A program made the translations under genes and the position numbers. From an uncultured Anaerolineae bacterium (GTDB lineage Bacteria; Chloroflexota; Anaerolineae; J036; Brachytrichaceae), in the NCBI GenBank assembly GCA_937927775.1, contig CALBEF010000037.1, positions 1 through 64,000 of the forward strand: a stretch of 64,000 bases of DNA. The letters are read 5' to 3'. This document shows, piece after piece, positions 29,076-42,870 of the stretch; within the stretch, counting starts at the first letter, position 1, and each line of letters begins with the position of its first letter. The notes beneath the pieces are model-generated. The model saw only the letters and a program-made list of their open reading frames with translations, was not told where the DNA came from and searched no databases.

Positions 29076-30878
29076 TCACGACCTGGCCTGATTGGCCGGC
29101 CACAGCGTCACCAGGTAAATCGCGTACAACATCGGTTTCCCGAACCGATCCAGCCCAAAAGTTGCTGCGTCGCCGGTGAGTTGGGCTGTCTGGCCCAGAT
29201 TGTGCGTGGTCAGCGCCCAGTTCACCAGCGTCACCGTAAGCAACACATAGCCCAGGTATAGAAAGATGCGCCCGGCGCGCGGCAACTCCGGCGAACTGAT
29301 GTTGGCCCACGATCCCGCTGTCAGAGCGTCCCAGATCAGGCCGAATGCGATAAAGCCGACCCCGGCAAACCCGAAAAGCGGTGTGAAACGATTGTTGATG
29401 AAGGCTGTCTGTCGCAGCAGTCCGCTCATCAGTGTGACCAGCAGCAGCGCCGCCGCCCGCGCCGGCGTCAACTCGCGGCGGATCAGCCACACCAGCGCGA
29501 CTGCGCCAAAGATGATCGTCCACCAGAAGTCTGTGTATGTCGGCCCATACCACGTCAGCAGGCTCAGGGGCCGACCGATGTCGGCCATTTCGATCCACAG
29601 TGCCATCAGGCCAAACCCGCACAGGTAGAGCGCCAGCGCCTGCCGGCCCCGCCTGGCCTGGGCCATGCCGGCAATCACCACCATCCCAAAGAACACCACC
29701 CGCCACACCGGCGTGTACTGGTTGTTGAGGAAGTCGGCGTAGGCGCTGGCAACCAGTTGCGCTGTGGTGGAGACTTCCGCGTTTGGAAAGATCGTGACGA
29801 ACGCCACAGTCAGACCGAGCATCACGAAGATGTACAACTGCGCCAGCGTGTAGCCGATGATGAGAGGCAGGGCGGCGCCATCAGCGGCGTTTAGCAGGCC
29901 CTGAGAGGACAGCGGCTCTGTTTCTGCGGCGCGGCGCGCAAGCCGCCGGCTGATCCACCAGGCAGCGCCAATGCAGGCCGGCACGCCCAACGCGCCCAGA
30001 AAGGCCCAGGCTTCCTGGGCCGGCGCGCGCATAAATGTCTCGATCGCAGACCCAAGCGCGTTGTGCACACGCAGCGCCAGCGCGATTGCCATCAGCCCGA
30101 ACAGCGCCACGCGGGGCAGCCGATCTTCGCTGATCCTCACCGCCCAGCCGGCTGCCACACAGGTGAAGTTGGCCATCGACAGCCCAACCAGCAGCAGCAG
30201 CGGCAGGATGAGCGTAGAAAGTGTCAGCGCATGGCCGTCGAGGTTTGACACTACCAGCGGCACGCCGCTGATTTGCCATTGCGCTATTCCCCGCGCCTGG
30301 GGAAACAGAAAGGTGAGCGAAACCAGGCCGAGCAACACGGAGAACTCGACGCCTGATCGCGGTTGCCGGCGCTGTCTGATCAGAAAGAAGACGATCACAC
30401 CCGCCAGCGCAACAAACCCGCCCCACGCATTGCCTCCACGGGTTGTGGCGCTGATCCATGACACGCTGACCATCATGAACAGACTGACGACGCCCAGTCG
30501 AATGGCCCAGTGGCTGTGCAGCGCGCCGGTCAGCGCGAAGCTCCAGGCCATCGCCAGCAGGAACAACGTGGCCGGCAGAAGCGGCAGCGGCGCCAACGTG
30601 CCGCGCCCGGCCAGACTGTTGGTCAATGGAACGAGATCGGCCGACGCGCGCCAAAAATCGTTGAACAGCAACAGCCCGATCATCAGGGCCATCAACGCAA
30701 ACCCGAGCAGGATCAATCCGCGCGTGACGCGCGACAGGCCGCGCAGATCGATCAGGCCGGCTTTGAGATCGGCCCACACGAAATCCCGCACGGCGCCGAA
30801 TGTCAGCGCCCACATCAGTCCCAGCGCGGCGCCGAGCGTCAGGGGGCCGGGTTTTAGCCGGCGCCACGGATTATTCAT
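29076..30878 (-). CDS. Polytopic membrane protein of unknown function
   Basis: About 600 residues with roughly 13-15 hydrophobic helices (for example VSLFMMVSVSW, ILPLLLLVGLSMANF, YIFVMLGLTVAFVTIF). Short charged loops separate them and there is no recognisable transporter or glycosyltransferase motif. ATG at 30878 overlaps the stop of the PQQ-propeller gene as ATGA, so the two are translationally coupled and are probably partners. Last gene of the PrsW/protease cluster. It could form a membrane platform or polymerase-like protein; no function is assigned. Confidence 0.65.
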   Translation of the reverse strand: MNNPWRRLKPGPLTLGAALGLMWALTFGAVRDFVWADLKAGLIDLRGLSRVTRGLILLGFALMALMIGLLLFNDFWRASADLVPLTNSLAGRGTLAPLPLLPATLFLLAMAWSFALTGALHSHWAIRLGVVSLFMMVSVSWISATTRGGNAWGGFVALAGVIVFFLIRQRRQPRSGVEFSVLLGLVSLTFLFPQARGIAQWQISGVPLVVSNLDGHALTLSTLILPLLLLVGLSMANFTCVAAGWAVRISEDRLPRVALFGLMAIALALRVHNALGSAIETFMRAPAQEAWAFLGALGVPACIGAAWWISRRLARRAAETEPLSSQGLLNAADGAALPLIIGYTLAQLYIFVMLGLTVAFVTIFPNAEVSTTAQLVASAYADFLNNQYTPVWRVVFFGMVVIAGMAQARRGRQALALYLCGFGLMALWIEMADIGRPLSLLTWYGPTYTDFWWTIIFGAVALVWLIRRELTPARAAALLLVTLMSGLLRQTAFINNRFTPLFGFAGVGFIAFGLIWDALTAGSWANISSPELPRAGRIFLYLGYVLLTVTLVNWALTTHNLGQTAQLTGDAATFGLDRFGKPMLYAIYLVTLWPANQARS

Positions 30879-32764
30879 GGTCCCAGCCTCCACACGATTG
30901 CTTTGGCGTTCGCAGCCCAGATGGCGCCGCCGCCGGCTACCGGCCCGTAGATGAAGTCATAGCGATTGGCTGTGTCGGCGACACTGATCCGCTCGGAAGT
31001 TGCCCATTCGCGCAGTTGATGGCCGGCCTGGTCGAACAGCCGGAATGTGCCGTCCTTGTCGATCGCCAGGATCGACTGCCCCAGCGCAAGCGGCGCGCCC
31101 GAGTAGCGGCGCGCCGCGTCTCGCCATAGCCGGCGTCCGTCGTCCCTGGCGAGCACCGTGAGCCGGTTCGCCTCATCGACTACGCCTACAAAGCTGTCGC
31201 CCACAGCCGGCGCGCTGCGCACCCCGGCGCCCATGCGCGTTACCCATCGCTCCGCGCCGGTGCGGGCATCCAGCGCAACCAGCGCGCCGGTGTTGCTCGC
31301 GGCATAGGCCACGTCGTCCACGACCACAATCGGCGCTTCGACCGGCCCGTCGGCGGGATACTCCCAGATCAGCTCGCCACTCGCCGCCTCATACGCATAC
31401 ACAATGCCATCATCCGAGCCGATGAGGACCAGAGTGCCGGCCACTGCCGGCGACGACACAACTGCCGCGCCGGTTTCGGCCTGCCACCGCAGCGCGCCGG
31501 TGTCTGCATTGAGCGCGTATACACGGCGATCCTCGCTGCCGAAGATGACCGCATCACCCGCCAGCGCCGGGCGTGTGGCAATGTTGTCGCCGGTGGCAAA
31601 CGACCACAGGAAAAGCCCGCGCGCGTCCAGCGCATACAGGCGCTTGTCTGTTGAGCCGAAGTAGATGCGCCCCCGCCCCGGATCAAAGGCCGGCTGGCTG
31701 AAGATGCTGCCGCCGGTGTGAAATCGCCACACCAGATGTCCTGTTTCAGTCACCGCGCTGAACGCCAGCAGGTCGCCGTTATAGGCCGCTGCCAGCACGA
31801 TGGGCGGATCGAGCGGCAGCCACACCGGCGGAATGGTGCTTTCGATCTCCCCGCCGGTGAGATTCAGCCTGGCGAACACCGCTAGTTGCCACAGATCGGG
31901 CGCGGTCGCCTGTTGCGCCGCGTCAACCAGAAGCGGCGCCGGCGGGAACCGGGCCGGCGAGGCGTTGGGCGAGTGGCGTCGGATCAGGGCGCCGGTGGTG
32001 TCGAACTCTTCGGTCTCGACGACGCCCGCGCCGGCGCACAACCAGTCGACCGATCTTGTCTCGATAGGCGGCGAACGCAGCAGCGTCAGCGCCGATTCGA
32101 CTTGCAGGCAGTCGTCGAATCGTCCCAGGTCTGTCTCGCGTGGGCCGGCGGTCAGCGCGCGGCCCTCGTGGCGGTACGCTACTGATCCGGCAAACATGCC
32201 TTCGCTGCGCCATGTCTTGCCTGGCGCAAGGTCAAACGGATAGATCAGGATGGGCGGATCGAAGACGAAGTCGGTGTCTGCCGCTGCGTTGTAAATGCCG
32301 ATTAGAAACACCCCGCGCGCCTCGCGCACATAGGCTGCCAGTGTGGTCGTGATTGCCCCCCTCACATCCATGAAACGGTCGCGCGCCTCAAGCAACTGAA
32401 TGTCGCGCAGCCAGTCCATCGCGTCGCCCTGGCCGGCGTTTTCATCTGGCATGTAGCGCGCCAGAACTGCCCGGCTGAAGGCAGGCCGCAGGTCGTATAT
32501 GACACCGCGCAGGCTGGGCAGCAGCGCCGTGTTCTGGCTGCTCCAGCCGATCAGCCTGCCGGCGGAATCATAAACGCCGCTCAGGCGCGCGTCGCCGTCG
32601 ATGGCGGGGGCGTAGCGGTCAAGAATCGGGCCGGCCACGCCCGGCCGAGGCAGCCACGGCTGGGCAAAAGCGACGCCTATGCCGGCCACAAACAGAACGA
32701 CTACCAGCAGGCCGGCGGTATCGCGAATCACATCCAGCCGTTTCCGTCTGTGAGGCGTAGTCAT
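30875..32764 (-). CDS. Membrane-anchored PQQ-type beta-propeller protein
   Basis: 629 residues. One N-terminal membrane anchor (about 20-38), then an extracytoplasmic module (to about 300), then 6-8 propeller repeats with the signature YFGSTDKRLYALDARG, IFGSEDRRVYALNADTGALRWQAETGA, LIGSDDGIVYAYEAASGELIWEYP and AASNTGALVALDARTGAERW. These resemble BamB/PQQ-like repeats without obvious quinone-binding residues, so a protein-protein scaffold is likelier than an enzyme. It is coupled by ATGA overlap with the downstream polytopic protein. ATG at 32764 is preferred over the in-frame start at 32794, which lies next to a palindrome. Confidence 0.8.
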   Translation of the reverse strand: MTTPHRRKRLDVIRDTAGLLVVVLFVAGIGVAFAQPWLPRPGVAGPILDRYAPAIDGDARLSGVYDSAGRLIGWSSQNTALLPSLRGVIYDLRPAFSRAVLARYMPDENAGQGDAMDWLRDIQLLEARDRFMDVRGAITTTLAAYVREARGVFLIGIYNAAADTDFVFDPPILIYPFDLAPGKTWRSEGMFAGSVAYRHEGRALTAGPRETDLGRFDDCLQVESALTLLRSPPIETRSVDWLCAGAGVVETEEFDTTGALIRRHSPNASPARFPPAPLLVDAAQQATAPDLWQLAVFARLNLTGGEIESTIPPVWLPLDPPIVLAAAYNGDLLAFSAVTETGHLVWRFHTGGSIFSQPAFDPGRGRIYFGSTDKRLYALDARGLFLWSFATGDNIATRPALAGDAVIFGSEDRRVYALNADTGALRWQAETGAAVVSSPAVAGTLVLIGSDDGIVYAYEAASGELIWEYPADGPVEAPIVVVDDVAYAASNTGALVALDARTGAERWVTRMGAGVRSAPAVGDSFVGVVDEANRLTVLARDDGRRLWRDAARRYSGAPLALGQSILAIDKDGTFRLFDQAGHQLREWATSERISVADTANRYDFIYGPVAGGGAIWAANAKAIVWRLGP

Positions 32765-32800
32765 TGCGCCTGACTCCATCGCGCATCCGCTCACACGTCA

Positions 32801-32827
32801 CAGGGGCGACCAGTCTGGTCGCCCCTG
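32801..32827. repeat. REP-like palindrome, CAGGGGCGACCA family
   Basis: CAGGGGCGACCA (32801-32812), 3-nt loop, then the perfect complement TGGTCGCCCCTG (32816-32827). It lies between the NTF2-like and propeller genes on the minus strand. There is no T-run; it probably acts as an mRNA hairpin or is a mobile palindrome. Confidence 0.88.
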
Positions 32828-32851
32828 TTGCGGACACAACGGTGTCGCCGG

Positions 32852-33286
32852 TCACCCCGGCCCAAACGGCGCTGACCAGGCCGGCGACTTGTGCGCATGC
32901 ACTACTTTCCAGACACCGTCGCGTTTCAGCAGCACCCGGCTTTCATTGTGCGAACGATGCGACACGCCCTCCGGCGTCATGCGGGTCAGCATGAGGGTGT
33001 AGCTGACGATCGCAACGGCCAGTCCGTCGCCGGTCAGATCGCCATAGACTTGCAGGCGCGGTTCAAGCAGATCAAAGCGCGTCTCATGACCTTCGGGCAG
33101 TCTGGCGTGCCGCACCAGAAAGAGATGAAAATCCAGCCCATCCTGCCGGTGCGGCGTGATGTGCCACTCGTACAGCGAGAGGTCATCGCTCGTCGTTGCG
33201 GCATAGGTGTCGGGATCGCCGTTGAAGATGGCGGTCAGGTGCCGGCGCAACGTGTCCCAGATTGGCTGCTGTCCAGAGTCATTCAT
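32852..33286 (-). CDS. NTF2-like (SnoaL/CaMKII-association-like) small protein
   Basis: 144 residues. A cone-shaped NTF2-like fold is suggested by the opening helix (WDTLRRHLTAIFNGDPDTYAA), the central FDLLEPRLQVYGDLTGDGLAVAIVSYTLML strands and the terminal SRVLLKRDGVWKVVHAHKSPA, the usual C-terminal strand with a Trp. Such domains bind small hydrophobic ligands or form dimerisation modules. It is cytoplasmic by lack of signal sequence. It lies 42 nt downstream of the trypsin-like protease and upstream of the propeller gene. Ligand unknown. Confidence 0.75.
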   Translation of the reverse strand: MNDSGQQPIWDTLRRHLTAIFNGDPDTYAATTSDDLSLYEWHITPHRQDGLDFHLFLVRHARLPEGHETRFDLLEPRLQVYGDLTGDGLAVAIVSYTLMLTRMTPEGVSHRSHNESRVLLKRDGVWKVVHAHKSPAWSAPFGPG

Positions 33287-33328
33287 TGGCGCTGCTCCGC
33301 TCTCATACCTGTGAGATGGGCCATCGCT

Positions 33329-34600
33329 CTACCGCTTTTGCAGTTTGAGCTTTGCCTCCACGACTTCAGGCGTGTCGTCTGTGACTTCGAGATTGTCCTG
33401 GGTCACTTCCCGGTAGCCTTTGGCGCCCCAGCCCACGCTGTAGGTCTTGCCGCGTTCCAGGAATTCGGTCATTTCGAAGCGGCCCTGCCGGTCGGTTCTC
33501 ACCGCTTCCAGCACTTGGTCCTCGCTGCCGGTGAACTCATCCCACGTGACGCCGGCCTGCAGAACCACGAACACAGCGCCGGAGATGGGCCTGCCGGTGT
33601 TTGCATCGACAATCGTGCCAACGATCTGCACGCCATCGCTCACCGGCCCATCGGGGTCGTCAGGGTTGGGCAGTTGCCCGCTCAGCGCCTTTTCGATCAT
33701 CTCGCGCGCCAGATTGACGGGGCGCAGCGCGTTGATGAAGCCGCCGATGGGAATGCAGGTGTCGGTCTCGTCGATGCGACCGTCGCCGTTGGTGTCCTGA
33801 ATGCGCCGGCAGTCCGTGGCCCTGTCTGCGCTGGCCACTTTGGCCTGGGTGGGAACGCCGACAAGCTGGCCGGCGTCATTCAACGCTGTTCCGCCGCTGT
33901 TGCCCCCGGAGATGGTCGCGTCGGTCTTGATCCACGCGCGACCCCGGACGCCTTCTTCGCTGTCGAAGCCGCTGACGTTGCCGCGCGTGAAGGTGATGGT
34001 GTTGCCGCCGATGCTGGGATAGCCGTAGATGCGCAGCACATCTTCGATCTCGACGGTGTCCGAGTCGCCCAGTTCGATGAACGGCAGATCGAGCGACTCC
34101 GGGTCGATCTCCTCGCCGGACAGATTGCTGGTGATACGCGCGATCGCCAGGTCGAGATCGGGCAGGGCATCCACCACATCGGCGATGAACATAGCCACCG
34201 GCGGCTGGTCCGGGTTGCGAGTAAACAACACGACCATTTTATCTTCAAGAATCTTGATGTTCCTGTCGCCCCTGACTTTCTCGACCAGCTCGCTGACATC
34301 CACGACATGGTAGTTGGTCAGGATCAGGCCGTCGCGGGACAGAACCGTGCCGCTGCCCCAGCCAAAGAAGCGCACTTCCTGTTTGCCCTTCTTGTTCTTC
34401 ACCAGCGCCACCGGCCCCAGTTGCACAACGGCGCGCCACTGCGCTTTTGAGGAGTCGCGCTGTTGGGCGCCGCCCTGACTCGCCGGCGCGGACTGAGCCG
34501 TCCATGCGCGCAACGGCAATGCCGAGCCGCTGGTCAGCACTGCCACCAGCACGGCCAGCGCCACGCACGACATCTTGAAAAGCGGATGCGTCCTTCTCAT
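33329..34600 (-). CDS. Secreted trypsin-like serine protease with carboxypeptidase-regulatory-like domain
   Basis: 423 residues. Signal peptide (about 1-35), then a trypsin-like HtrA-type fold with catalytic His98 (LTNYHVVD), Asp148 or Asp150 (PDLDLAIA) and Ser235 (ISGGNSGGTAL). There is no PDZ domain; instead a calcium-loop segment DTNGDGRIDETD occurs around residues 265-285, and a carboxypeptidase-D-regulatory-like beta-sandwich occupies about 315-423 (GTIVDANTGRPISGAVFVVL). The start codon overlaps the stop of the PsbP-like gene as ATGA. The C-terminal domain is closely related to that of the secreted protein at 36151, suggesting shared binding targets. Confidence 0.85.
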   Translation of the reverse strand: MRRTHPLFKMSCVALAVLVAVLTSGSALPLRAWTAQSAPASQGGAQQRDSSKAQWRAVVQLGPVALVKNKKGKQEVRFFGWGSGTVLSRDGLILTNYHVVDVSELVEKVRGDRNIKILEDKMVVLFTRNPDQPPVAMFIADVVDALPDLDLAIARITSNLSGEEIDPESLDLPFIELGDSDTVEIEDVLRIYGYPSIGGNTITFTRGNVSGFDSEEGVRGRAWIKTDATISGGNSGGTALNDAGQLVGVPTQAKVASADRATDCRRIQDTNGDGRIDETDTCIPIGGFINALRPVNLAREMIEKALSGQLPNPDDPDGPVSDGVQIVGTIVDANTGRPISGAVFVVLQAGVTWDEFTGSEDQVLEAVRTDRQGRFEMTEFLERGKTYSVGWGAKGYREVTQDNLEVTDDTPEVVEAKLKLQKR

Positions 34601-35235
34601 GGCAACCTCACAGACTCAACGAATGCGCGGAACCTCTGCTCGGCCAGGTCTCGATTCTCGCGCGCGGCAAGGAGACTGAACACGTACACCCGCTCGCCTT
34701 TGCGCGCCAGCAGGTCGTCGCCCAGCACAACCGCCGGGATGCCCTGCTGGAACAGGCTGGTCGGGTCGTGCACGAACACAAAACTGGCCGTGGACGCCGG
34801 CAACCCTTTGATCGTCTGCCCGGTCTGCACATCGAGCAGCTTGAACGAGGACAGGTCGCGCCCGCGATTCAATGCCAGCGTGTTGACGGCAGTTGCCAGC
34901 GCTTCTTCGTCACTGGCGTCGCTTGCCGCCGGCAGCCAGCGCAACTCGAAGGCGGTGGGGTACTCGGTTGCCAGGGGGTCGCTGACGCGAATGAGGCCGG
35001 CTTCGGCGCCGGTTGTGTCCAGCCGCCACGATTCGGGGTACGCGATGGTCACGCCAGAGGGGTCGGCATACGGTTGGGTGCGCGCCTCGACCACGTTTCG
35101 CCACAGCAGCCCGGCCAGGATGGCGACGAGCGTGACGATGACTGCAAGCAGGGCCGACATCTGATCGCGCGCGTTGATACGGAACGCGGGAGCGTTGCGC
35201 GTTGCTGTTTGCGCGGATGAAGTTTGAGTTGTCAT
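34597..35235 (-). CDS. Membrane-anchored PsbP/Mog1-like domain protein
   Basis: 212 residues. Single transmembrane helix (about 27-47, LLAVIVTLVAILAGLLW), then an extracytoplasmic domain that begins YADPSGVTIAYPESW, the usual opening of PsbP/Mog1-like alpha/beta domains, and ends with a helix before VESVRLP. The same domain type forms the C-terminal part of the PrsW fusion at 37092-38552. It starts 10 nt after the PrsW-like gene stop and overlaps the protease start, placing it between them in both transcript and, presumably, function. Confidence 0.7.
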   Translation of the reverse strand: MTTQTSSAQTATRNAPAFRINARDQMSALLAVIVTLVAILAGLLWRNVVEARTQPYADPSGVTIAYPESWRLDTTGAEAGLIRVSDPLATEYPTAFELRWLPAASDASDEEALATAVNTLALNRGRDLSSFKLLDVQTGQTIKGLPASTASFVFVHDPTSLFQQGIPAVVLGDDLLARKGERVYVFSLLAARENRDLAEQRFRAFVESVRLP

Positions 35236-35245
35236 GGGGTGCCTC

Positions 35246-36133
35246 CTACTTCTGATCCGCGTCGGCGCCGGCCAGAGTAAGCTGGTTGGCCCGCCGCATG
35301 AGGGCGAATGTCACACCCAGCAACGCCACGGCGACGACTGCCGCCAGCGCGAGCGCCGGCCATGGGTTGTAGCCACCGCTCGCGCCGGTTGTGCCAATGG
35401 TCAGCGGGGAAGTGGTGATCTCGCCGGCCAGCCACGAGAACAGGCCGTTGATGACCGCCGCCAGCGTCAGGCCGGCCGGCATCCACCACAGCGGCTCGTC
35501 GTCGAACTTCGCGCGGGCGATGAAGTAGCCGGTGAACCCGCCCAGGGTCGCCTGCACCAGCGTCACGATCACGATGCGGATGATGCCGGCGCCGAGCTGT
35601 TCCGCCGCAATGCCGCCGCCGTTCGCCACCATGGCGACGTTGATGAAAGCGGCGTACCCGATGCCGGCAGCCGTCCCGTACAGCACACCATCGATGCGCT
35701 CATCGAACTCGTCTGAGTAGTACACGCTGTAGCGCACCGCGGCGTACTTCAGGAACTCCTGAACGAACCCGACGATCAGAATGGCGCCCAGGATTTCGGT
35801 CAGCGTGTCGCGGCCCATCCACTGCGGCGCGCGCGCGACATCGTTGATGAACGGCTGGCCGACGGCGGCCGCCAGTAGTGCGCCCAGGATGGCCACGCCA
35901 AGCACGTAATGTCTCGGCTCCGGCTCGGCGCGATCCTGGGCGTAGAAGAACGATATCCAGATGGCGGCAGGCACAAGCGCCAGCACGATGCCGACCGGCA
36001 GCAGCATCTCCCGGCCTATGGTTGGATTGAGCGCGGCGACGATCAGTTCCGCCACCGCGACGTAGACCAGCAGGATGACGATCTCAATCAGGCCGGCCCG
36101 CCATACGCTTTGACGGTTGCGCGCTATATTCAC
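35246..36133 (-). CDS. PrsW-like intramembrane protein (first copy)
   Basis: 295 residues, about seven or eight helices. PrsW family marks: ISFFYAQDRAEPEPRHYV (about 60-77) and DEFDERIDGVLYGTAAGIGYA (141-161). PrsW enzymes are glutamic-type intramembrane proteases that cut anti-sigma factors. The conserved Glu pair followed by Lys is here Q125-E126-FL-K129; the Glu expected after GxGYA is replaced (AAFIN), and the usual His of the third motif is Gln194 (TLVQATLGGFTGYF). Catalysis is therefore doubtful by comparison from memory. It is flanked by a secreted CarboxypepD-like protein (17 nt) and the PsbP-like protein (10 nt). Confidence 0.78.
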   Translation of the reverse strand: MNIARNRQSVWRAGLIEIVILLVYVAVAELIVAALNPTIGREMLLPVGIVLALVPAAIWISFFYAQDRAEPEPRHYVLGVAILGALLAAAVGQPFINDVARAPQWMGRDTLTEILGAILIVGFVQEFLKYAAVRYSVYYSDEFDERIDGVLYGTAAGIGYAAFINVAMVANGGGIAAEQLGAGIIRIVIVTLVQATLGGFTGYFIARAKFDDEPLWWMPAGLTLAAVINGLFSWLAGEITTSPLTIGTTGASGGYNPWPALALAAVVAVALLGVTFALMRRANQLTLAGADADQK

Positions 36134-36150
36134 ACCATGCCTCCTGCTGC

Positions 36151-36987
36151 TTATCTCCTCACCAGTTTGATGTCCAGCACCAGCGGGTCTTCGGTGTCCT
36201 CATCGAGCGCCCAATCTTCCTCGATAATTGGTCTGTAGCCCTGCGCGCCGATCAGCCAGGAATGGGGGACGCCGATCTCAATCGGCCTGTCCAGCACAAA
36301 CTGCCCCTTGCTGTCGGTTCTGGCAGAGGCGAAGACATCCTCGTCTGTGCCATTGTCCAGCCAGTCTTCCATAATCACACCTTCATTCAGCACAACAACC
36401 AGCGCGCCCCGGATGGGTTTCCCGCTTCTCGAATCGACAATCGTGCCCTGCACTGTCACGGCATCGGCTGATGGCCCATCGCCGCCAATGATCACTGTGC
36501 CGGATGTGATCAATTGATTCCTGATGTAGAACTCAACGCCATACTCTGCGTCCGGCAACGGCGACTCATCCCGCTTGGACAGACTGGCCTGCCAGGCATC
36601 CGGTCTGTTGGTCGCCCTGGGTTTGTCTTCAGAGGTGAGCACGGCTTCGCCATCCACGTACCATACCGTCACCAGGGTCGTGTTGCGCGGGATGCAGTTG
36701 TACTCAAACTGGGCAGTGATGCGCGTCGTGCCGCTGGGATAGCTGTCAACCTCCTCAGCCTCGCCCTCTTCATCCAGGATGATCCACACAACGTCGCCTG
36801 CATTTACGGTGGTGCAGCGCGAGGTCTGCGCAGCCGGCGCTTCGAGCGCGCGCTGTTCTGCCGCAGCCGGCGCCGAATATGCGGCGAATTTTGCGGCCCG
36901 CTGTCCATAAGCTGTGCCGGGGAGCGAAGCCAGCAGGGCCAGGGTGATGCTCAACACAACGATCCAGAGTCGTTTCACCTGTCTCAT
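36151..36987 (-). CDS. Secreted protein with carboxypeptidase-regulatory-like domain
   Basis: 278 residues. GAGGAGG precedes ATG at 36987 by about 7 nt, which decides this start over an upstream in-frame codon. Signal peptide about 1-29 (ending TAYGQ), an N-terminal beta-rich domain with two cysteines (about 55 and 96) and a C-terminal CarboxypepD_reg-like domain (about 180-278: GTIVDSRSGKPIRGALVVVL, then ARTDSKGQFVLDRP). That domain closely parallels the C-terminal domain of the protease three genes downstream. Probably an extracytoplasmic binding protein or protease substrate/regulator. Confidence 0.7.
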   Translation of the reverse strand: MRQVKRLWIVVLSITLALLASLPGTAYGQRAAKFAAYSAPAAAEQRALEAPAAQTSRCTTVNAGDVVWIILDEEGEAEEVDSYPSGTTRITAQFEYNCIPRNTTLVTVWYVDGEAVLTSEDKPRATNRPDAWQASLSKRDESPLPDAEYGVEFYIRNQLITSGTVIIGGDGPSADAVTVQGTIVDSRSGKPIRGALVVVLNEGVIMEDWLDNGTDEDVFASARTDSKGQFVLDRPIEIGVPHSWLIGAQGYRPIIEEDWALDEDTEDPLVLDIKLVRR

Positions 36988-37091
36988 CTCAAAATCCTCC
37001 TCGCCGGTCAGGCAAACCTGTTGTCCCTGATCGAGTGACAATTTACAGGTTGCCTCCCGGAGATGCTGGACATTTATCCATCAATCCGCTG

Positions 37092-38552
37092 TCAGAACGA
37101 CAGGCTGCTGACGAATCGCTCGAACTGCGATTGAACCGCCCCGATGGTGTCGGGCGTGGCGATTACGGTGACGACGACCACTGTGCCGCCATTGACGAAG
37201 ATGTAGTCGATGCCCTGAGTCACCTGCGGCACGGATCCCGTCAACCCGCCCTGGTCCACCCAGGCGAACTCCTGAAGGGTGGCCGGCCGGCCATTCACCG
37301 TGGTCTCGCCGGTGCGCACCACTTTGTACATGAGGTTGTTCGCGGCGCGCTCGGCGGCCAGCAGCGACGTGATCGCTCTGACATCCCCACCGGCGGGGGT
37401 GGGGATTGTTCTGACGACGAACTCGGCGCCGCTGCCGGTGCGGTCGGCCACGCGCACCACGTCACCTGCTCCCGTGGCCGCGCTGAAGTAAGCGGGGTAG
37501 GCTCCGCGAATGCCGTCCTTCTCGAAAGCCGTGACGCCGTTGACGGCCCCGTTCCACCCAATGACGCCAACGATCAGCATCACGACGAACAGGCCCACCG
37601 TCGCCAGATTGGCCTGGCGATCGCCCACAGCCGCGTCTTCGGCTGCGCCGGATGTCTGACCGCCGGCCGAAGCAGTCACATCACGATCAACCAGCCACGC
37701 GACTACGGCTGTCACGATCACGGCCAGTCCGCCGGCCAGCAGCAGACCGGTCAGCGATGGCAGCCCGCCGGCTTGCGCGCCAACGGAGATCGACCCGCTT
37801 TCCAACTGCCCGCGCAATATCAGGAACAGGCCGTTCAACGCGGCGGTGATTGCGAATCCAAGCGGCAGCCACCAGATGGGATCGCGTTGCATCCTGGCGT
37901 GGCCGAGGAAATAGCCCAGCAATCCGCCAAAGGCGGCGTAAGCAAGCGCCACTTCCGCGACATACACTTCCACGCTGCCGAGCGCCGCGCCGCCACTGGC
38001 GAGGATGAATTGGAGATTGGTCGCTGTGGCGTAGCCCAGGCCGGCCGCTGTTCCATAGATCACGCCGTCGGTGCGCTCGTCGAATTCCGGTGAGTCGAAC
38101 ATGAAGTAGCGCACGGTGGCGTAAATGATGAACGTCTCGATTGCGCCGCGTACGAACACGGCCCCAATCAGCGTGCTGCCCGGATCGCGAAACAGCCAGT
38201 CCTGCGTGCGGAAAACCTGATCGCTCAGGGGCACGCCGATCGCGCCGGCCAGCGCAAGCCCGATCACAAACATCTGGGCCACGTGTCCGACCGGCTCCGG
38301 CTCCACGCGATCCTGCAAATAGAAGAAGATCAGCCACAACACGGCCGGCACAATTGCCAGCGTGACGCCCACGGCCAACAGAGCAATGCCCGACAGTTGC
38401 GGTTGCAGCGCAACGTCGATAGCTACCACTGCGGCCACAAAAATCAACAACACAATCAATGTGACGATGGCGGATCGCCAAACGCCGGCGCGAGACCGAG
38501 ACGCTTTCGCGTACCGATCGGGCGCGGAACTGGCGGAAGACTGCTGAGACAT
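37092..38552 (-). CDS. PrsW-like protein fused to a C-terminal PsbP/Mog1-like domain
   Basis: 486 residues. GAGGAGG precedes ATG at 38552. Helices follow the PrsW pattern with LIFFYLQDRVEPEP (74-87) and SPEFDERTDGVIYGTAAGLGYA (154-175), aligning without gaps to the copy at 35246. A linker and extra helix (about 322-345) lead to a PsbP/Mog1-like domain (about 345-486, starting KDGIRGAYPAYF and ending ERFVSSLSF). Catalytic positions are further degraded: the Glu-Glu-Lys triad reads E139, T140 and I143, the Glu after the glycine motif is T178, and the third-motif His is Tyr205. Likely a pseudoprotease or receptor; first gene of the eight-gene cluster. Confidence 0.75.
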   Translation of the reverse strand: MSQQSSASSAPDRYAKASRSRAGVWRSAIVTLIVLLIFVAAVVAIDVALQPQLSGIALLAVGVTLAIVPAVLWLIFFYLQDRVEPEPVGHVAQMFVIGLALAGAIGVPLSDQVFRTQDWLFRDPGSTLIGAVFVRGAIETFIIYATVRYFMFDSPEFDERTDGVIYGTAAGLGYATATNLQFILASGGAALGSVEVYVAEVALAYAAFGGLLGYFLGHARMQRDPIWWLPLGFAITAALNGLFLILRGQLESGSISVGAQAGGLPSLTGLLLAGGLAVIVTAVVAWLVDRDVTASAGGQTSGAAEDAAVGDRQANLATVGLFVVMLIVGVIGWNGAVNGVTAFEKDGIRGAYPAYFSAATGAGDVVRVADRTGSGAEFVVRTIPTPAGGDVRAITSLLAAERAANNLMYKVVRTGETTVNGRPATLQEFAWVDQGGLTGSVPQVTQGIDYIFVNGGTVVVVTVIATPDTIGAVQSQFERFVSSLSF

Positions 38553-40832: not shown

Positions 40833-41165
40833 TCAGGAGCCGGCGGCTGAGCCGGCGGCGCCTTTGGGTTCTGCCTGGTTGACAAATTGCTCCAGGTCCA
40901 GGCGGAAGAACAGGCGACGCCGCACGTCGGGGGGCAATGCCGCCGGCGCGTCGGCGGCGATGTGATACAACTCAACCGTCTTGCGCAGCGTGTCTACCAC
41001 AATCCGGCAGCGCTCGCAGCCGGCCATGTGCCGCTCGATTTCCGCGCAGATTTCGTCGGCCAGGTCGCCGTCCACGTAATCGGACAACGATCCAAGTAGC
41101 TCTCGGCACTGCGCGTGATCGCGCGCGTGATCGCGCGGGCTGCTGGTCTGGTGTTGATTGCTCAT
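40833..41165 (-). CDS. Zinc-finger anti-sigma factor (ZAS type)
   Basis: 110 residues. HAQC (about residues 17-20) with H46, C50 and C53 in the HMAGCERC motif gives the His-Cys3-type zinc site of ZAS anti-sigma factors such as RsrA and ChrR. It lies 9 nt downstream of the ECF sigma factor it should bind. There is no transmembrane segment, so it is a cytoplasmic, possibly redox-responsive inhibitor: oxidation of the zinc thiols would release sigma. Thiol-redox genes directly downstream support this reading (inference). Confidence 0.85.
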   Translation of the reverse strand: MSNQHQTSSPRDHARDHAQCRELLGSLSDYVDGDLADEICAEIERHMAGCERCRIVVDTLRKTVELYHIAADAPAALPPDVRRRLFFRLDLEQFVNQAEPKGAAGSAAGS

Positions 41166-41174
41166 GTCATTGTC

Positions 41175-41831
41175 TCAGGCGTCACGATTGTAAATCGCTG
41201 CCGCCAGCAGCCGCTCGTTGTAATAGGTGGACAACTGCTCGCGCAGATTCAGCCGGGCGCGCAGAAGCCTGGTTTTCACGGCCGCTTCAGTCAGGTTCAA
41301 CGCTTCGGCGGTTTCACGCACCGACAGGCCCTCGATATCGCGCAGCAGAAACACGGCTTTAAGCGCCGGAGACAATCGGTCGATTGCTTTATCGAGGTGA
41401 TCGCGCGCCTCGGACGACAGCAGTTCATCTTCGGGCAGGCAGCACCAGTCCACGATCTGGATGGGTTCCTGTTCTCCATCGGGGGTTGGCTGGGGTTCGT
41501 CCACCGAGACGGCGTCGGGCTTGCGCCGGCGCAGCGCCATGAACGCTTCGTTGGCCGCAATGCGGTACAGCCACGTGGAAACGCTGGAGCGGCCTTCAAA
41601 GTCAGGCAGGGCGCGAAAGGCTTTTAGGAAAGTCTCCTGAAGGGCATCCTCGGCGTCCTGCGCGTCGCCGAGAATCCTGAATGCCAGCCGGTAAATGGGG
41701 CCGGAATACTTGTCGACCAGTCGGGCGAACTCTGCCCGATCGCCGGCCCGCAGCGCGGCCAGCGAAAACTCCGCGCGGCCATTGCCACGCTCGCCGGGTT
41801 GCCCGGCAGTGGACACGCTTTCAGCCATCAT
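41175..41831 (-). CDS. ECF-type RNA polymerase sigma factor
   Basis: 218 residues. Sigma-2 region RLVDKYSGPIYRLAFRILGDAQDAEDALQETFLKAF with STWLYRIAANEAFMALRRR, an acidic linker, and sigma-4 LSPALKAVFLLRDIEGLSVRETAEALNLTEAAVKTRLLRARLNL. A Met-Met start (41831/41828) overlaps the recombinase gene end by 8-11 nt. It is followed by its ZAS anti-sigma factor. It likely directs thiol or oxidative-stress genes, including its own operon. Confidence 0.92.
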   Translation of the reverse strand: MMAESVSTAGQPGERGNGRAEFSLAALRAGDRAEFARLVDKYSGPIYRLAFRILGDAQDAEDALQETFLKAFRALPDFEGRSSVSTWLYRIAANEAFMALRRRKPDAVSVDEPQPTPDGEQEPIQIVDWCCLPEDELLSSEARDHLDKAIDRLSPALKAVFLLRDIEGLSVRETAEALNLTEAAVKTRLLRARLNLREQLSTYYNERLLAAAIYNRDA

Positions 41832-42870
41832 GTCGATCCGTAAGGTTTGACGCGATCGTCGAGTCGGATTCTGGCGGCGTCGATGGTTGGGATTGCGGGC
41901 GGGATGGTGTTGGCAGGGAAGCAGACGCGGGGGGCGCTTCGACGATGGCCAGGCGGGTATGATCCTGTTCGCCCGGCGCAGCCGGCGATTCGTGGGCGGG
42001 TGGCGCCTTCTTGCCCCTGCGTTGCCGGTACATCTGGGTGGTGGCGAGGTTGGCGTGCCCCAGCCATTCCTGCACGCGCCGCACATCCTCGCCGCTGTTG
42101 AGCATATGCGCCGCGCGCGAGTGTCGCAACGTGTGGGGCGTCACATCGCCGTCAATCCCGGCCGATTTGGCGTGCTGGCGCGTTATCAGCCACACCGCCT
42201 GGCGCGTGAGTTTGGCGCCCTGGGGGTTCAGAAAAACATAGTCGGTGTTGTTGTTGCCGGCCAGATCCATCCGGGCCTGGGACAGGTAGTCGCTCAGGGC
42301 AGCCACGGCGCGCGGCAGCAGCGGCGCCATGCGCTGCCGGTGCCCGCGTCCGACGCATCTGACTTCGTTCGTTTCCAGGCTCAGGTCGTCCAGCCTCAGA
42401 TTGATGGCTTCGGACACCCGCATGCCGGTGGAGTAGATCACTTCCAGCAAAGCCCGGTCTCGGGCCGATCGGGGTTCCGCTGTGGCTGCGGCTGCTTCAA
42501 ACAGGCGCCCAATCTCGTCGGCGCTGAGCAGCCTCGGCGCCCGCTTTTCAACGCGCGGCGACTTCAACTTGAGCGAGGGGTCCTCGCCAATGATGCCTCG
42601 CTGGTTCAGCCAGTGAAACAGGGTTTTGAGCGCGGCGATTTTTCGCGCGATGGTCGATGTGGTATAGCCGCGCTGTGTCAGCGCAGCCACATAATCTGTC
42701 AATGTGTCGTGCGTGATGGCTGACCAGGTGGACTCTGCCGACAGGTGAAGGGTGAGGTGCTCTGCGAACTGGCTCAGGTCGTTCTTGTACGCCCAGATCG
42801 TATTGGGTGAGGCGTCGCGGTCTGTCCTCAGGTATTCCAAAAACTCTGCAATCCCGCTTTGCCAGTCCAT
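41821..42870 (-). CDS. XerC/D-like tyrosine recombinase with C-terminal extension
   Basis: 349 residues; typical Xer is about 300. The SAM-like N-terminal DNA-binding domain is followed by a catalytic domain with R151 (TGMRVSE), H246 and R249 (TPHTLRHS), H272 (LGHAN) and nucleophile Y281 (TTQMY). The lysine usual in the GKGxKxR beta-hairpin is arginine (GRGHRQR, about R175). About 62 Pro/Ser/Thr-rich residues follow the catalytic Tyr, and their coding sequence overlaps the ECF sigma gene. It may be the chromosome-dimer resolvase or an accessory recombinase; no dif-like site was identified. Confidence 0.85.
   Translation of the reverse strand: MDWQSGIAEFLEYLRTDRDASPNTIWAYKNDLSQFAEHLTLHLSAESTWSAITHDTLTDYVAALTQRGYTTSTIARKIAALKTLFHWLNQRGIIGEDPSLKLKSPRVEKRAPRLLSADEIGRLFEAAAATAEPRSARDRALLEVIYSTGMRVSEAINLRLDDLSLETNEVRCVGRGHRQRMAPLLPRAVAALSDYLSQARMDLAGNNNTDYVFLNPQGAKLTRQAVWLITRQHAKSAGIDGDVTPHTLRHSRAAHMLNSGEDVRRVQEWLGHANLATTQMYRQRRGKKAPPAHESPAAPGEQDHTRLAIVEAPPASASLPTPSRPQSQPSTPPESDSTIASNLTDRHDG

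Follow-up and report, generated by a model that had tools for sequence, protein, structure and literature searches.

The window examined here, a 64,000-nucleotide stretch of contig CALBEF010000037.1 from an uncultured Anaerolineae bacterium close to Candidatus Roseilinea (Chloroflexota), carries eight genes (g1 to g8) between positions 29,076 and 38,552, all on the minus strand and in the order listed by an earlier sequence-only reading, which had taken them as one cluster for envelope sensing and proteolysis. The window carries two copies of a conserved core unit consisting of a PrsW-like membrane protein, a PsbP/Mog1-fold domain and an exported protein ending in a CarboxypepD-like domain (CarbD). 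Unit A is formed by g1 (37092-38552), in which a PrsW domain of eight transmembrane (TM) helices is followed by a ninth TM helix and an external PsbP/Mog1-fold domain, and by its partner g2 (36151-36987), an exported protein with an Ig-like domain and a C-terminal CarbD, without a protease domain. Unit B comprises g3 (35246-36133), an unfused PrsW-like protein with a GTG start and 88% identity to its counterpart in JAEANN010000017.1, together with g4 (34597-35235), a single TM helix with an external PsbP/Mog1-fold domain, and g5 (33329-34600), an exported HtrA/trypsin-like serine protease with a C-terminal CarbD. The remaining genes, g6 to g8, are local additions and are described at the end.

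Both PrsW-like proteins exceed the cut-off of PF13367 (g1, 46 bits; g3, 66 bits), and the two copies fall below the 225-bit cut-off of NCBIfam NF033739, with 85.4 and 77.2 bits. The predicted PrsW active site comprises EExxK in TM3, HxxxD in TM6 and a His in TM5 (PMC4602095), and four motifs have been described (PMC3482391). At these positions g1 has IETFI in place of EExxK, TN in place of EN, Tyr for the TM5 His and Asn for the TM6 His, while g3 has QEFLK, IN, Gln and Asn, respectively. The same losses run through the family: the EE pair is gone in 48 of 49 well-aligned members (75 of 76 when 27 divergent ones are included), the Glu of the EN motif in all 49 (76 of 76 with the divergent ones), the TM6 HxxxD/N His in all 49 and the TM5 His in 38 of 49, g1 and g3 among them. 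Counts for the TM6 motif (motif 4) are taken from the 49-sequence alignment only, the column being misaligned in the 76-sequence one, where canonical members scatter. By comparison, catalytic PrsW proteins of Chloroflexota retain EE, the EN Glu and both histidines, in TM5 and in TM6 (5/5). A reading of the PrsW-like genes as decaying pseudogenes is ruled out by a dN/dS of about 0.1 and zero stop codons; g3 has the lowest dN/dS in the cluster (0.09–0.11) and g1 stands at 0.10–0.17. Judged by their motifs, the members of this family are pseudoproteases that lack the PrsW active site and are under strong purifying selection. Compared with PrsW proteases such as that of B. subtilis (PF13367, NF033739), the window proteins share the fold family, the eight TM helices and the EFDxxxDGxxYG region, but have lost EExxK, the EN Glu and TM6 HxxxD/N and are fused to or paired with PsbP; they are members of the PrsW fold family that lack what defines a PrsW protease. 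The proteolysis foreseen by the sequence-only reading is thus retained for the exported trypsin-like or thermolysin-like (M4) partners and not for the PrsW parts.

The PsbP-like domains of g1 and g4, which that reading had already named, are undetected by Pfam alone but were recovered both by family profile and by fold. A profile of 20 family sequences retrieves cyanobacterial PsbP (PDB 2xb3, E=4.6e-6), and the same sequences taken singly match Pfam PsbP in 11 of 20 cases (best 9e-6) and DcrB in 6 of 20. The g4 protein is homologous to the C-terminal part of g1. In an AlphaFold2 model of g1, the PsbP part (pLDDT ~80) resembles PsbP (2xb3, E=4e-6), the effector chaperones EagT6/SciW, Mog1 and Tsi3 by Foldseek, and the membrane part (pLDDT ~60) gives a weak match to APH-1 (5a63_C, E=0.044). 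Topology assigned from the positive-inside rule and the model places the N-terminus inside, followed by eight TM helices and a cytosolic C-terminus, and then a single TM helix with the PsbP domain outside, on the same side of the membrane as the signal-peptide-bearing partner. The topologies of the separate form (g3 plus g4) and of the fusion (g1) are compatible with each other.

The conservation of the unit was assessed from the neighbourhoods of relatives, with domains mapped by iterated profiles, and the sampling covered Chloroflexota plus one match on a Deinococcus plasmid; no relatives turned up in a viral collection. The PrsW-like protein adjoins or is fused with the PsbP-like protein in all 26 representative loci, and a CarbD-ended exported protein is adjacent to them in 25. 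In the sole exception, genome G110, the CarbD partner (M4-CarbD) lies on another contig, with both places mid-contig, and a second genome (G400) likewise keeps its CarbD partner unlinked. At loci with both ends readable, PrsW and PsbP are never separate, and 17 open reading frames join the two, some of them in g3-type relatives (L052, L057) and others within the g1-type clade, which bears out, at the level of sequence, the physical coupling that the sequence-only reading had proposed for these two domains. The pairing with CarbD also holds across whole genomes. Among 60 relatives, 28 have PrsW and CarbD, 29 have neither and 3 have one only, namely two fragmented genomes with PrsW and a single CarbD-only genome (G168) with a weak match. 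In a set of 200 Chloroflexota genomes, both are strong in the same 13. The two PrsW-only cases turned out to be catalytic PrsW; in G106 and G219, which appeared to be exceptions with PrsW and no CarbD, the EE pair, the Glu of EN and the His of TM6 are all intact. Among 297 genomes of the class, 85 of 94 PrsW places have a same-strand CarbD within 6 kb (Fisher p=3e-41), and most of the remaining nine are at or near contig ends. Apparent CarbD-only genomes (30 loci, and G015) mostly have a divergent PrsW-PsbP adjacent; the rest of the 30 loci are eight signal-less trypsins, and otherwise contig ends or fragments.

The two partners also share their evolutionary history. The mirror-tree correlation between PrsW and CarbD is 0.69, compared with a maximum of 0.23 in 2000 permutations, and it drops in G000, G001, G002 and G025 when the partners of units a and b of one genome are swapped. 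In G014, the correlation is lowered by swaps involving the g5-type partner, and swaps between its two a-type units are neutral. Unlinked partners and pair-specific congruence of this kind are less easily explained through gene linkage. As a separate observation, divergent PrsW-PsbP pairs with an ATGA overlap and long C-terminal PrsW tails occur in genus g186 (L136, 6032-7743; L137, 6780-8524), and no CarbD partner was recognised near either pair.

The exported partners occur in four architectures, namely trypsin-CarbD, trypsin with one to three Ig domains and CarbD, M4-CarbD and Ig-CarbD, and CarbD is the sole part common to all of them, lying at most 13 residues from the C-terminus in 83 of 85. 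In g2, which has a signal peptide, CarbD ends 1 residue from the C-terminus, and the Ig domain is one that is also found in the long trypsin partners; an AlphaFold2 model of g2 (3 sequences, pLDDT 45.5) was set aside. The g5 protein has a Trypsin_2 domain (PF13365, 82 bits) with an intact H-D-S triad and a signal peptide, and a search for PDZ, the C-terminal domain of HtrA/Deg proteins, gave zero matches, with CarbD occupying that place. CarboxypepD_reg falls just under the Pfam cut-off in both g2 and g5. The sequence-only reading had rightly seen this shared domain and missed its meaning as the constant part, present once per PrsW-PsbP unit. The protease active sites are intact throughout, with the H-D-S triad in 23 of 23 exported trypsin partners and HEFTH in 16 of 16 M4 partners, and the secreted protease is, as had been suggested, a conserved member of the unit. 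All 64 CarbD proteins that adjoin PrsW and PsbP and have an intact N-terminus carry a hydrophobic N-terminal signal. Conversely, eight trypsin-Ig-CarbD proteins (L121, L127, L128, L129, L131, L133, L145 and L147) start at the protease domain, have no signal peptide and no membrane unit nearby, and presumably form a cytosolic subclade. By sequence, then, the coupling is lost where the partner has no signal peptide, and the membrane unit goes with export. Two ideas about CarbD fared badly. Its role as an exclusive docking tag is weakened by its retention in the solitary cytosolic trypsins, and a sortase-like tag, by which one machine serves many tagged passengers, is ruled out because numbers are about 1:1 and CarbD is a folded domain; a C-terminal TM helix, which together with a short motif and a basic tail marks sortase and exosortase sorting, was found in none of the exported partners. 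A lipobox-like signal makes the trypsin partners of L059, L111 and L113 probable lipoproteins, which fits action close to the membrane.

Two further sets of loci extend this picture. At 16 M4 loci, which are all the M4 loci with a readable flank, an emfourin-like gene lies downstream of PsbP (e.g. L040, 10647-11186), whereas none of 51 trypsin loci has one. Its Pfam emfourin E-values range from 2.4e-5 to 0.06 in the six loci tested, under the curated cut-off. In G110 the emfourin-like gene is still with PrsW-PsbP, and the protease has moved away. Emfourin is a proven inhibitor of M4 proteases (PMC9505478). Outside Chloroflexota, a complete cassette, PrsW-PsbP-(trypsin-Ig-CarbD) with 4-bp overlaps, lies on plasmid p_TS293_2 of Deinococcus taeanensis (L122, 5935-8932). 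Its PrsW motifs (QEFLK, LN, GQ, LNG) are those of an inactive protein, yet it is annotated as a glutamic-type intramembrane protease; the cassette genes are listed as PrsW protease, hypothetical and trypsin-like. This cassette is preceded, about 1 kb upstream, by transposase genes.

The mechanism that we favour, with roughly equal chances of being right or wrong, is that the pseudoprotease-PsbP membrane unit escorts, matures or tethers its own exported enzyme. The PrsW-family pseudoprotease, with its eight TM helices, and the membrane-anchored PsbP/Mog1-fold domain would form one membrane complex with PsbP facing outward. This complex would receive its single dedicated partner after Sec export, most likely recognising it through the C-terminal CarbD, and would fold or mature it, escort it or tether it at the outer face of the membrane. 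The chemistry would be done by the partner, as trypsin-like or thermolysin-like proteolysis in those that have a protease domain. The basis of this proposal is the loss of the active site under purifying selection, the inseparability and repeated fusion of PrsW and PsbP, the approximately 1:1 coupling, the congruence of the trees, the intact proteases and the missing coupling where the partner has no signal peptide. Several points weigh against it. We infer the physical complex, the contact through CarbD and the escort or tether function from sequence, and signal peptides were assessed via hydrophobicity and by eye. Gene linkage accounts for part of the co-occurrence and co-evolution, and the solitary cytosolic trypsins keep CarbD, so that this domain must be useful even where the membrane unit is lacking. 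The structural match to APH-1 is weak, at E=0.044 and with a membrane pLDDT of about 60, and motif loss makes another chemistry less likely.

Among other explanations, the best placed, though unlikely, is that PrsW-PsbP is an inhibitor or immunity device, holding the exported protease in an inactive state at the membrane or shielding the producing cell. The PsbP-like fold of Tsi3, an immunity protein that neutralises Tse3, is one that the external domain resembles, the pairing is 1:1, and the unit is absent where the protease is not exported. However, the M4 loci already own an emfourin-like inhibitor, and partners without a protease domain, of the g2 type, still have a full unit. We rank inhibition below escort or tethering because emfourin already supplies it at M4 loci.

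A sensory role, in which PsbP would detect an envelope signal or the passenger, the pseudo-PrsW would relay it inward and the protease would be the output, appears somewhat more doubtful still. It draws on a zinc-ribbon or LIM-like half, CxxC-(about 17)-CxxH/C, that PrsW-like proteins at about 20 loci carry at their cytosolic N-termini (e.g. L058, 5401-6336), and a role as signalling peptidases has been suggested for Zn-ribbon-fused PrsW proteins (PMC3482391). Abx1, a member of the PrsW superfamily, acts on the histidine kinase CovS independently of its active-site residues (PMC3578759), which provides a superfamily precedent for protease-independent function. In the window, g1 is preceded at a distance of about 2 kb by a pair of genes for an extracytoplasmic function (ECF) sigma factor and an anti-sigma factor. 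However, of the loci compared only the window and L034 have this pair, the window's genus has lost the ribbon, of which 'YAKA' seems to be a remnant, and none of the 26 representative loci has a recurring cytosolic output gene beside the unit. The envelope sensing of the sequence-only reading found no specific support.

It is quite improbable that the genes are merely co-inherited, as a mobile set travelling together without physical interaction. The cassette does cross phyla, as the Deinococcus plasmid demonstrates, but its partners persist together when unlinked (G110, G400), fuse repeatedly and co-evolve in the correct pairs, and cytosolic passengers have no membrane unit beside them. Least probable of all is that the PrsW-like proteins remain intramembrane proteases using other residues and process the passenger or an anti-sigma factor: PrsW similarity is far over the Pfam cut-off, and EE, Lys and the His of TM5 survive together in L061 alone of the 49, but the EN Glu and TM6 HxxxD/N His are gone in all, no alternative conserved acidic/His set occurs at the motif positions of the 49-member alignment, and a true catalytic PrsW is present separately in several of these genomes.

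Control of one protease by an intramembrane pseudoprotease is familiar from eukaryotes, and in the literature searched we found no dedicated bacterial PrsW-family pseudoprotease that controls a protease and no characterisation of this unit, in agreement with the sequence-only reading. By analogy, the PrsW-PsbP unit would work like iRhom-ADAM17/TACE (PMC5436907, PMC13277793) in logic, in that an inactive relative of intramembrane proteases is dedicated to an exported protease, without being a member of the iRhom family; the rhomboid fold is unrelated, the system is eukaryotic and its partner is a transmembrane metalloprotease, whereas the bacterial case is read from genes. APH-1 of gamma-secretase is similarly non-catalytic, belongs to the PrsW/CAAX superfamily (PMC4602095, PMC3482391) and is the weak structural match noted above, but it scaffolds an intramembrane aspartyl protease and not an exported soluble enzyme. 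The Eag chaperones of type VI secretion systems (DUF1795/DcrB; PMC7773334) share the PsbP/Mog1 fold and bind a dedicated exported effector; unlike the PsbP part here, which is membrane-anchored, external and accompanied by a pseudo-PrsW, they are cytosolic and bind effector TM helices. The protealysin-emfourin operon (PMC9505478) resembles the M4 variant in its emfourin-like gene, but protealysin is an intracellular M4 protease, and the M4 protein of the cassette bears a signal peptide and a CarbD tail and comes with an additional pseudo-PrsW-PsbP unit.

The system is new as such, and its component parts are of known kinds. We tentatively extend the proposal, at somewhat short of even confidence, to a widespread bacterial system in which a PrsW pseudoprotease and a PsbP fold act as the obligate membrane partner of exchangeable CarbD-tailed exported enzymes, a bacterial parallel to the logic of iRhom-ADAM17 that uses the APH-1 fold superfamily, so that many 'PrsW proteases' in databases would be non-proteolytic. 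If true, a whole clade of genes labelled 'PrsW family glutamic-type intramembrane protease' would have its annotation corrected. A simple three-gene system, also present on a plasmid of Deinococcus, a culturable-type genus, would be available for studying the handling of an exported enzyme by a dead intramembrane protease, and the APH-1 fold would have an independent case of turning into a non-catalytic scaffold.

The arrangement of the cluster itself was confirmed in part, and its earlier interpretation partly supported. The genes had been described as held together by ATGA overlaps and short gaps; overlaps occur at g4/g5 (4 bp) and g7/g8 only, and the other gaps are 104 (g1/g2), 17 (g2/g3), 10 (g3/g4), 42 (g5/g6) and 57 bp (g6/g7). 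The g6/g7 gap contains a strong minus-strand hairpin of 13 pairs (32799-32829, with a perfect palindrome at its core, 32803-32825), with a stability of -34.3 kcal/mol (z=-4.3) that no shuffle matched. At the equivalent position, hairpins of altered sequence occur in L034 (13348-13379; -44 kcal/mol, z=-4.6) and, shorter, in L035 (13267-13287; z=-2.6). The window hairpin has no U tract, so that a terminator, an attenuator or a processing site are all possible, and it likely marks the boundary of a transcription unit. Because of this conserved hairpin, a single eight-gene unit is doubtful, and the cluster is probably one of six genes (g1–g6) and two (g7–g8). The sequence-only reading would have given up its cluster if the order were conserved in no relative; the full eight-gene order is retained in two congeneric species (L034 and L035), and the PrsW-PsbP-passenger core is kept phylum-wide.

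The last three genes, which had been counted as parts of the pathway, are local additions outside the core. The g6 product (32852-33286) is an NTF2-like protein of the CaMKII association-domain family (PF08332, 104 bits); of the loci read, only those of the window's genus have it. Downstream, g7 (30875-32794) encodes a single TM helix and an external BamB/PQQ-type propeller (PQQ_2, 157 bits), and g8 (29076-30878), its partner through the ATGA overlap, encodes a polytopic membrane protein with about 16 hydrophobic segments for which the family search gave no Pfam match. The two are near the unit in at most three genera beyond the window's: g7 adjoins units in G025 and G009, with g8 following, and a weak g7 fragment occurs in G024. 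At L117 (1352-6249), in another genus, an Ig-CarbD gene has homologues of g7 and g8 as neighbours, the g7 homologue having a longer propeller (1027 aa). The ECF sigma gene upstream of g1 and its zinc-finger anti-sigma gene lie at 40833-42086 of the window, behind a divergent VC0807-family gene.

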